From contig JAFLZH010000003.1 of assembly GCA_029785615.1 (NCBI GenBank), forward strand, positions 51,719-115,718: a stretch of 64,000 bases of DNA, in the 5' to 3' direction. The notes under the pieces were generated by a model. That model did not search any database. It had not been told where the DNA came from and saw nothing but the letters and a program-made list of their open reading frames with translations. Below are positions 13,142 through 17,065 of the stretch, piece by piece; within the stretch, counting starts at the first letter, position 1, and the number at the start of each line of letters is the position of its first letter. A program made the position numbers and the translations under genes. The DNA comes from Nitrososphaerota archaeon (GTDB lineage: Archaea; Thermoproteota; Nitrososphaeria; Nitrososphaerales; Gagatemarchaeaceae).

Positions 13142-16100
13142 CTAACCGCCCCAGAAGAGGTCCAGAGTCGTGGCGCCCATTATCTCATCGAAGGAGAAGT
13201 CCAGGGCGTCAAGGAGCTGGTCGAACATGGAGTGGGCGTACTCGATGTACTTGTCCGCGTCGACCTCGTCGGTCCTGGCCAGCTTTGCCGGCTTCACATA
13301 GGGGGGGCTCTTGGTCTTGACGAAGGCGATTATCTCCCCCGCCTTGATTTCCTCCCCCTTCTCCTCGAGCTGCTTGGCGGCCCTCACGTGCTGGGGGGTG
13401 GTGCCGCTGTACTTGGCCGTGGGCTTGCTCATCATGACGGTGAACGCCAGCTCGGAGACCGGGATCCGCTTCCCCCTCAGGTCCGACACCATCTTGGTTA
13501 GGACCTCCCTTGTGCTGGTGCGGGCTCTCTCGAAGTCCTCCGGGTTCTTGACGGAGCTCAGTATCCCCAGGGTGTCGTAGAAGATCCGCTTCAGGTACTC
13601 CGGCGTCTGGCTGTTGTGCAGGAGGGTGGGCAGGTTGCCTGCCACAAACCTTTCGAAGGTTGGAACAGAGAAGTCAAACATAGTCGCGCCACCGCGTAGT
13701 CTCCTTACAGAAATGACTTCGTCGAAAGTCACGTCTTTGACATTGAGCATCCTCGCAATTCTGATTAGGCCCTTTCTTTCTCCGCTGTTGGCCATCTGAA
13801 GGAGTCGCCCAAGCACAGAATTGTAGCGGTCCAGCAAAGACAGGTCGTAGTAGCGCGCATCGTGCAGATTCAGGTCCCTCTTGCGCTTGAGGCCGCGCCG
13901 TCCGAGCATCTGTGACTTGATATTCAGAAGCCCGTCGGTGGAGATAGGGATTAGCTCCTTGTTCCTTGGGGCCGTGCCCGCCTTAGCTCTGAATCTGCGT
14001 TGCATGAATCCGATGTACCGGTAGAAGCGCTCCCGGCTGAATGCCCCTATCACGCTCAACTGATGGTACCTCGTACCCTTCACCGAAATCTCTCTTATCC
14101 TCACATCGATATCGAAACGTGCCAGAAGATAGGCGACCTCCGTGAGTAGCGTCTTGCTCCTCGAAGCGATGTTCACTCTCCTTCCATCGCCGTATCCGCC
14201 TCCAGAGAAGACTGCCCTCAGGAACTCCGCTACGAACCCCCCATCTGCGTCGAAGACTATCCCTGGGACGTGCTTTGCCTCGCCGGACCCCCCGCAAAGA
14301 GCCCTGAAAAGCTCCGCGTGAAGCCTAGGGAGATGGTATGTGTTGACTCCCCCCCGCCGGCGCAATGTCTTGATTGGCCTCTGAAACAGAACCTCCCAGC
14401 AGCGTTCTATCTCAGCACACACCTCTGGGTTCGCCAGCCAACTCTGGGTGATTGAGTTGTTCCTGGACCTGTCGTCCTCCGAAGCACCCCCTCCAGACAC
14501 GTACAGCCCGAGCATGGTGGCCAGCTCCCTCGACATCGGCAGGCTGCAAGGCAAAGGCGTCGATACAGTCGCGTGGGCCCTGGCCGAGTACGCATGTCCG
14601 TCCCTGAACAGGAGCGGGCTCGTCAGGTAGTGCAACACAGGGAGGCGTGGACTGGGGTCGCGCGGAGGCACGTACTGGGCTCCAACGACCACGTCACCTG
14701 GTCTCAGCGTTTTCGTGCTTCTGTGGAACAGTCGCCCAAGCGAGTCCATGAGATACACGCTGTGGTCTCCCGACAGTCTCAGCTCCCTCCCTTTGCTCGT
14801 TCTGATTTCAAAGACATCAGACACCTCGTGCTTCATGGCATCTGAGATGTGCACCCATGCAGTGCTGAGCCCGTCAACCACTGTCACTACCTCAACGTCT
14901 TTCCCCGCCTTGAAAGCTTCGTACACCTCAGCCACTGCGGCCAGCCTGACTCTCTCGTCATAGCGGGCGAGCATGGGGGTGCTGCCGTGCACGGACTTCT
15001 TCCCCGTCAGTCCCTTTATGTCGACGGTCCCGTCCGGGAAGACGCCGAAGTAGTTCTTCTTCCTGCTGCTGAAGGCGACATACCTGTAGACCTTGTCGAG
15101 GTCGAGCTCGACCCCCAGCCCCGAATCGGCCCACCCTGATATGGTCGACACCTGCTCTTTCGACGGGCTGTGCAGGAACAGGCTGTCGGTGTCGGAGTAG
15201 AGGACATCCACCCCGAGCTCCTTGCACTTCGCTATCGTCCTGGTGATGGCGTCCCTGCCGAGGGCTGCGGTGGCTTCGGCGACCGGGAGGCAGTAGAACG
15301 CGAACGACTCGAACCCGAAGGAGCCGTAGGCGCCGTTGAGGTACACCTTGAGGCTCTGGGACACGACCCCGTAGAGCTCCCTGTCCTGCTTCGACAGGGT
15401 GGGGTCCTTCGCCAGCTGCTTGTAGTGACCGACCCTCAGGTCCCTGAGCGAGCCTATCACGAGGCTCGTAATCCCCTTCTTCTTAGTGCACTCCCAGGAG
15501 TCTGTGTCGGGGATCTTGTTTGTCCTGCACTCCGGGTGGGGGCAGTTGACTGTCTCGTAGGAGAGGTTGTGCACCTTCATCAGCGAGGGGTACAGGCTGG
15601 CGAAGTCGAGCACGGAGACGTCGAAGTACACCCCCGGCTTGGGGTCGATTACGAGCCCGCCCTTGTACTTCTTCCCCTTGATGATGGACTTGGAGGACGC
15701 GCCCCCCTTCTCCGCGAGCTCGTCCTGCCTCGGGATGAGCGCCCCCATCCTCCTGTGCTCGTAGAACAGCATGCTCCGGATCCAGTTGGATATGCCGAGC
15801 CTCGAAACGTCGTTCATCGGCATCTTCCCGATCCTCGAGATCATCAGGAGGAGCTTCATGACGACGGAGTCGTTCATGGACGTCAGCTCGTAGGTCAACT
15901 GGGCGTCGTTCAGGCAGTACTCCCCCAGCTTCCGCAGGGGGAGGTCCCCGACCTCCCCTTCGAAGTCCACCTTCGACTTCCCGATAAGCGACTCCGAGAT
16001 CCCTCCGAGGGTGTGATCGGTGTACTTGTTGCCGAACGCGTAGACCTGGATGGACCTGTTGCGGAAGAACTGGTAGAGGTCGATGTGGATTCCATGCTTC

Positions 16101-17065
16101 AGCGACGCCGCCACCCGCTCCAGCTGGATCGGGTCCTCCTCCTCCGCTATCCCTAGCCTCTTGCCCCTGTGCTGGATGTACCGCAGATCGAAGTCGTCCC
16201 CGTTGAAGGTGACTATCACGGGGTAGTCCATCACCTTGGAGAGGACCGCCCTCAGTAGGTCTGCTTCGCTGTCGAAGAGCCGGTACTCGAAGGGCGCACC
16301 TGAGAGCCCTTCCTCGCTCCGCGCACCCTTGAGCATGTAGACAGTCTTCTCCTTCTCATTGTAGAACGACACGGCGATGACCTCCCTGTTGGGGTCTTCG
16401 ACGTCGGGGAGCCTCCCCGGCTCGTTGTCGACCTCTATGTCGAGAGCGACCCTCTTGAAGTCCACGAGGGGCTCGCCCAACAGCTCCGCCCACTCCTTCA
16501 GGAACGGGGTGAAGGACGGCGGGCTTTTCGTCATGATCTCTTCGAGGGAGCGCGCGACCCTCTCCGGGACCGCGTGCCTGACGGGGACCATCTCGCCCCC
16601 GGCGACCTTGTAGTAGGTCCCCATGCGGAGGCCGCGGTCGTAGGCATAGTTCTCGTAGTACTTGATGTCGGCCTCCCAGGCTTTGATCTGGTCGCGGATG
16701 CTGTCGTTCCCTCCGCCGATGGCCAGCGGGTCGGTGGTGATGATCTTCCTCAGCTTGGCCCTGGAGTCGGTGAGCAGGTCGAGCTTCTCCTCCTCGACTA
16801 CGTCCAGGACGTCCTTGCGCGCCCTTACCGCCTGCAGCTCGTCCATGGGGAGCCTGGTATAGCAGTAGGGCTTGTGCCCGGTGTCGTCTTCCCAGAGCCA
16901 GAACATCCCGGCCTTCTGATCGTAGAACTTCAAGACCGCCTTCTTCCTGTCACCGTCGTAGGTCGCCGAGGCAAGGAGCGACTCTCCCATCTCCTTCACC
17001 GGCCTGGTCAGCCCGGCCAGCTTCTCTGCGAGGCCGGAGGTCTGGACCGAGGACTGGGAGGCCAT
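13142..17065 (-). CDS. polB: Family B DNA polymerase precursor containing an intein (1307 aa; 846 aa after splicing)
   Basis: ALDIEVD (ExoI), DFASLYPSLMK (motif A), LNGAYGSFGF (motif B), LYSDTDSLF (motif C), C-terminal tail LDLFWGG. Confidence 0.96.
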   Translation of the reverse strand: MASQSSVQTSGLAEKLAGLTRPVKEMGESLLASATYDGDRKKAVLKFYDQKAGMFWLWEDDTGHKPYCYTRLPMDELQAVRARKDVLDVVEEEKLDLLTDSRAKLRKIITTDPLAIGGGNDSIRDQIKAWEADIKYYENYAYDRGLRMGTYYKVAGGEMVPVRHAVPERVARSLEEIMTKSPPSFTPFLKEWAELLGEPLVDFKRVALDIEVDNEPGRLPDVEDPNREVIAVSFYNEKEKTVYMLKGARSEEGLSGAPFEYRLFDSEADLLRAVLSKVMDYPVIVTFNGDDFDLRYIQHRGKRLGIAEEEDPIQLERVAASLKHGIHIDLYQFFRNRSIQVYAFGNKYTDHTLGGISESLIGKSKVDFEGEVGDLPLRKLGEYCLNDAQLTYELTSMNDSVVMKLLLMISRIGKMPMNDVSRLGISNWIRSMLFYEHRRMGALIPRQDELAEKGGASSKSIIKGKKYKGGLVIDPKPGVYFDVSVLDFASLYPSLMKVHNLSYETVNCPHPECRTNKIPDTDSWECTKKKGITSLVIGSLRDLRVGHYKQLAKDPTLSKQDRELYGVVSQSLKVYLNGAYGSFGFESFAFYCLPVAEATAALGRDAITRTIAKCKELGVDVLYSDTDSLFLHSPSKEQVSTISGWADSGLGVELDLDKVYRYVAFSSRKKNYFGVFPDGTVDIKGLTGKKSVHGSTPMLARYDERVRLAAVAEVYEAFKAGKDVEVVTVVDGLSTAWVHISDAMKHEVSDVFEIRTSKGRELRLSGDHSVYLMDSLGRLFHRSTKTLRPGDVVVGAQYVPPRDPSPRLPVLHYLTSPLLFRDGHAYSARAHATVSTPLPCSLPMSRELATMLGLYVSGGGASEDDRSRNNSITQSWLANPEVCAEIERCWEVLFQRPIKTLRRRGGVNTYHLPRLHAELFRALCGGSGEAKHVPGIVFDADGGFVAEFLRAVFSGGGYGDGRRVNIASRSKTLLTEVAYLLARFDIDVRIREISVKGTRYHQLSVIGAFSRERFYRYIGFMQRRFRAKAGTAPRNKELIPISTDGLLNIKSQMLGRRGLKRKRDLNLHDARYYDLSLLDRYNSVLGRLLQMANSGERKGLIRIARMLNVKDVTFDEVISVRRLRGGATMFDFSVPTFERFVAGNLPTLLHNSQTPEYLKRIFYDTLGILSSVKNPEDFERARTSTREVLTKMVSDLRGKRIPVSELAFTVMMSKPTAKYSGTTPQHVRAAKQLEEKGEEIKAGEIIAFVKTKSPPYVKPAKLARTDEVDADKYIEYAHSMFDQLLDALDFSFDEIMGATTLDLFWGG
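13613..14995 (-). other. Intein within polB (461 aa) with degenerate LAGLIDADG endonuclease domain
   Basis: Starts SVHGSTPMLARY after GLTGKK; block B-like LSGDHSVYL; ends ERFVAGNLPTLLHN followed by S (QTPEYLKR). Excision restores GLTGKK-SQTPEYLKR. Confidence 0.92.

Follow-up and report, generated by a model that had tools for sequence, protein, structure and literature searches.

The polB locus and its intein

The window analysed here, a contiguous stretch of 64,000 nucleotides, comes from a Nitrososphaerota genome that hosts an intein-interrupted family-B DNA polymerase gene (Table 1). Profile searches with the polB frame gave matches to the Pfam DNA_pol_B and exonuclease domains and to NCBIfam PRK05761. 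The initial annotation had placed a 461-aa intein in this gene, and its coordinates proved to be exact: positions 13613-14995 of the minus strand are translated without a stop within the PolB frame, and the flanking residues (...KGLTGKK and SQTPEY...) are contiguous at the insertion point in intein-free relatives, where the uninterrupted junction region reads GLTGKKSQTPEY. In the homologous DNA of the intein-free genome G024, two blocks were aligned whose ends coincide with the intein borders. The relatives therefore have a precise empty site and the insertion is in frame, as is characteristic of inteins. The comparison with intein and LAGLIDADG profiles that had been proposed earlier gave scores above the cut-offs for both Intein_splicing (PF14890; 49.1 bits, cut-off 35.8) and LAGLIDADG_3 (PF14528, residues 254-329; 49.0 bits, cut-off 22.5), as well as for TIGR01445 intein_Nterm (residues 2-81; 30.3, cut-off 24.5).

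Table 1 Features of the interrupted polB gene, in window coordinates
Feature	Position	Strand	Basis or remark
polB, family-B DNA polymerase precursor with intein	13142..17065	-	1307 aa from ATG; open frame
Intein, 461 aa, Ser1 to Asn461	13613..14995	-	Profiles; exact junctions against intein-free relatives
N-terminal splicing region, residues 1-147	14555..14995	-	TIGR01445 residues 2-81; model; boundary approximate
Block B SGDH, residues 75-78, intact	14762..14773	-	Invariant in 12 alleles
LAGLIDADG endonuclease region, residues 148-410	13766..14554	-	LAGLIDADG_3; 2cw7 alignment; model; boundary approximate
Codon 168, GGA (Gly), first catalytic acid position	14492..14494	-	GAA (Glu) in closest relative; ends helix 156-168
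Lys241 of block D (KHVP), retained	14273..14275	-	Allele alignment
Codon 266, GGC (Gly), second catalytic acid position	14198..14200	-	GAC (Asp) in closest relative; ends helix 252-266
C-terminal splicing region, residues 411-461, ending His460-Asn461	13613..13765	-	Profile; allele alignment
Ser+1 codon of the C-extein, AGC	13610..13612	-	Comparison with relatives

Ser1, the SGDH of block B, the penultimate His460, Asn461 and Ser+1 were invariant in all 12 distinct alleles found at this site, which agrees with the earlier statement that Ser1, the penultimate His, the terminal Asn and Ser+1 are intact. The nucleophiles at positions 1 and +1, the block-B His and the terminal His-Asn pair expected of an intein are all present, and the window intein is predicted to be splicing-competent. 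Both parts of its splicing region are free of cysteine, with serine at positions 1 and +1, so that it can be described as a cysteine-less intein of possible use in protein engineering.

Loss of both catalytic acids in the endonuclease domain

In the window intein, motif 1 reads MLGLYVSGG and motif 2 reads FLRAVFSGGG. A phmmer alignment with PI-PkoII (2cw7), a DNA-polymerase intein of Thermococcus kodakarensis, placed Gly168 on the Glu of LGYYVSEG and Gly266 on the Asp of FLEGYFIGDG, and in the family alignment both residues fell in columns where eight distinct intact alleles have E or D. The absence of an acid from motif 1, noted in the initial annotation, was thus confirmed, and the finding that would have spoken against its reading, an intact D or E in either motif, did not appear in either alignment. 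For motif 2, the replacement of the acid by Gly stands, but the form FLRGLFDADG that had been expected there does not: family members normally have FLRAxFSGDG, in which Ser264 and Gly265 are ordinary and only residue 266 is abnormal.

The AlphaFold model of the intein (mean pLDDT 86.5, pTM 0.88) has a complete fold. Modelling of the domain, also suggested earlier, puts Gly168 and Gly266 at the ends of the LAGLIDADG helices, since helices 156-168 and 252-266 terminate at these residues, and the TliVMA, PI-PkoII, PI-PfuI and PhoVMA inteins were among the best Foldseek matches. A LAGLIDADG fold with two motif helices is therefore indicated by the PF14528 match, the model and the fold matches, while the acid that ends each motif helix in active enzymes is replaced by Gly in both. 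Judged by its sequence, the domain is a LAGLIDADG homing endonuclease by descent that is predicted not to be an active enzyme.

Sequencing error was ruled out as an origin of the Gly codons, because another assembly (G029), which differs from the window at 2 positions in 4383 nt, carries both of them. They are also not a background feature of the family, because GAA and GAC are found at the same positions in an allele of 94% identity. There is hardly any probability that the acids are present at shifted positions and keep the domain active. The string FDADGG (residues 248-253) does resemble a motif, but in the predicted structure it is located at the beginning of helix 252-266 or ahead of it, its acids vary among active-looking alleles, and Gly occupies both catalytic sites in the 2cw7 and family alignments. 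The FDADG string, a non-conserved stretch ahead of the second LAGLIDADG helix, was thus rejected as a surviving motif.

Timing of the losses and transfer between species

The closest allele, L011 of genome G022, is the 94%-identical one (amino acids) and contains YVSEG and FSGDG. Comparison of its codons GAA and GAC with GGA and GGC in the window indicates that each loss was a single A-to-G transition in the window lineage, and polarisation with outgroup alleles showed both changes to be derived there. Further changes at endonuclease positions that are conserved in several relatives (for example R186W, S238G, A257E and R365G) are also derived in the window.

The dS separating the window from L011 amounts to 0.071 for the intein, against 0.44 for the extein (0.51 in its 3' part); the neighbouring DNA is 88-89% identical, and the drop in identity starts at the intein borders. 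The much lower dS of the intein points to an exchange after the hosts had split, or to a common source for both lineages. The extein and intein trees also conflict: the extein tree groups the window with G004, and G022 with intein-free G024, whereas the window and G022 are sisters in the intein tree. From the dS contrast and this conflict it follows that the intein moved between species after their divergence and that the acids were lost later. The decay of the acids is therefore young and postdates the transfer. This supports the earlier reading of a degenerate phase of the homing cycle, as the acids were present in a recent ancestor and are gone here.

For another pair of genomes, G015 and G030, the extein has a dS of 0.32 and a dN of 0.014 and the intein a dN of 0.33, so that their inteins are as divergent as other intein pairs in the genus. 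A scan of viral contigs for relatives of the intein found none, and thus gave no evidence of a viral carrier.

Alleles at the polB site and selection on the endonuclease

Fourteen occupied alleles of the polB site were found, of which 12 are distinct. Four of these 12 lack at least one catalytic acid and the rest keep both. Apart from the window allele, both acids are lost in L016 of G004 (YVAGWG, FSAAG) and the second in L019 (FSGAG) and L050 (6001-6936); the latter is eroded to 312 aa by large deletions in the endonuclease, with conserved splicing ends. Within the genus, 8 polB sites were seen to be occupied and about 15 to be empty, which means that decay did not await fixation throughout the genus.

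Several side observations were made on inteins in these genomes. The G012 bin contains an occupied polB (contig C81, L015) and an empty one (C41, L058) with closely similar exteins, and may be a mixed bin or comprise two strains. PolB frames of more than 2000 aa occur at L017 (G035), L018/L046 (G043) and L019 (G036). A further intein in L046 has its end at the YxDTDS motif; the other frames, to judge by their length, may also contain several inteins. In the same small genome as the window there are at least six further inteins (G000 contigs C30, C2, C22 and C11; L001-L006). Read by eye, all six have an acid at both LAGLIDADG positions; two of them lie in an AAA ATPase gene and the others singly in eIF2-gamma-like, GlmS-like, RadA-like and NADH-dehydrogenase-subunit-like genes, all likewise named by eye.

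In the codon model, the window branch had an endonuclease omega that exceeded the background (p 6e-6) and was not different from 1, whereas that of the splicing part was not significantly raised (p 0.14); the window-branch value reached its bound on a short branch and is unreliable as a number. The independent dead alleles L016 and L019 had a raised omega in the endonuclease (p 0.013 and 0.041), while their splicing region showed no such rise (p 0.49 and 0.97). The branch of the intact L011 was raised in both regions, and simple counting gave an omega of 0.41, below neutral, for the endonuclease between the window and L011. Because the window value is at its bound and an intact branch is also raised, relaxed selection on the window endonuclease is suggestive only. 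The chance that both catalytic codons fall among about 12 replaced codons of 263 is 0.002; as the case was chosen for this feature, the figure does not speak for selection towards inactivation.

The Ser+1 codon and the target site

Serine codons of the AGY and TCN classes cannot be interconverted by a single synonymous change. In a comparison of window positions 13610-13612 with the homologous site in L009-L019, L047, L049, L050 and L052-L069, the Ser+1 codon of the 14 occupied alleles was AGY without exception, whereas 12 of the 18 empty alleles had TCN (Fisher p 1e-4 when kinship is ignored). A test on independent pairs yielded four, of which three or two agree and none disagrees, too few for significance. 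When 300 genomes of the order were searched by pattern, 209 gave a TCN site and 27 an AGY site. Most other conserved PolB serines showed 0-3 switches of codon class; the exception, Ser628 with 6 switches, adjoins the other intein site seen in L046. In this control over the whole extein, Ser691 was misread in occupied loci, where the alignments run into the intein; the valid Ser+1 counts are those given above.

As the protein is identical with either codon class, a link between Ser+1 and the intein must act at the DNA level. The pattern could arise either because AGY was brought in by co-conversion with the intein or because TCN alleles resist the endonuclease. Co-conversion of a flanking residue during intein invasion has been reported for haloarchaeal MCM (PMC10643990). 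A DNA footprint of homing may be left in the Ser+1 codon at this polB site, though we consider this rather doubtful. Under co-conversion, empty sites with AGY may be scars of lost inteins, and such a footprint, if real, would make past invasions and losses readable from empty genomes.

Comparison with known inteins and proposed explanation

The closest known parallel is the Pyrococcus horikoshii VMA intein (PhoVMA, 7qst), likewise a complete intein in which both LAGLIDADG active-site residues are absent (PMC8966425); the window model matches its fold with an E value of 2.9e-15. It has been reported that PhoVMA, without both acids, cuts DNA only once they have been put back (PMC8966425), and on this ground the window intein has probably lost cleavage too. 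However, block E of PhoVMA carries a deletion and its host protein is a V-ATPase subunit, while the window intein differs from an intact 94%-identical relative by two point changes at these sites on a short branch. PI-PkoII, the best PDB sequence match (E 9.4e-11), shares the two-motif LAGLIDADG domain, but is distant in sequence and carries Glu and Asp at the two positions that are Gly in the window. The archaeon Haloferax volcanii also has a polB intein that encodes a homing endonuclease; this enzyme is active, and homing of the intein was shown in vivo (PMC3024317).

The explanation we favour, with a probability of about 0.87, is a splicing-competent PolB intein with a catalytically dead LAGLIDADG nuclease, which arrived late and then underwent two A-to-G losses. 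An active form would circulate among species of this Nitrososphaerota family, cleaving empty polB genes in the region of the GKK/S codons and being copied in by repair; circulation and homing are suggested by the trees and the intact relatives. As the dS values show, the intein arrived in the window and G022 lineages well after their divergence, with earlier homing as the probable driver of the transfer between species. On the window branch, the metal-binding Glu168 and Asp266 then became Gly, together with the changes at other conserved nuclease positions. The intein would persist because splicing is needed for polymerase production, and its next fate may be erosion, as in L050, or loss through recombination with an empty allele. 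The homing cycle has also been proposed in an asynchronous version, with subpopulations at different stages at different times (PMC1654191), and this version fits best given the empty sites in congeners. The degenerate stage named in the initial annotation is accordingly retained, with the addition that the decay is asynchronous, taking place while empty sites are common in the genus, and does not follow full fixation.

A cleavage-dead domain might instead be kept for another job, such as support of splicing or folding, or DNA binding. An open frame and complete fold, the retention of Lys241 and most block residues and the pairwise omega below 1 would agree with this, and the TliVMA endonuclease domain was reported to contribute to splicing (PMC8966425). 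On a short branch, however, retention of the fold is expected by default, and the dead alleles L016, L019 and L050 lose conserved endonuclease residues and length, with omega of L016 and L019 raised only in the endonuclease; we therefore regard another job as improbable. It is more improbable still that the dead intein is mobile in trans, being copied into empty sites after a related endonuclease that is active has cleaved there. Active-looking alleles occur at this site in congeners, occupied and empty polB are found together in the G012 bin, and PMC10643990 cites trans homing of a defunct endonuclease for phage T4. Against it, no genome with two occupied alleles was seen, the G012 bin may be mixed, and the dead allele was not seen to spread beyond one near-identical assembly.

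Dead endonucleases are a familiar finding in inteins, and the present case is ordinary in kind and fits a known life cycle; what is unusual is how well it can be dated. A survey of 18 thaumarchaeal genomes reported one single-intein gene, with no detectable endonuclease (PMC10643990), and against this scarcity a Nitrososphaerota family rich in inteins, in which intact endonuclease motifs occur, offers a new and useful setting. Since a young dead allele, intact alleles, empty sites and older dead and shrunken alleles are found at one site, stages of the homing cycle can be observed in one clade. The allele series at the polB site is thus a good natural experiment, which makes simple tests possible.
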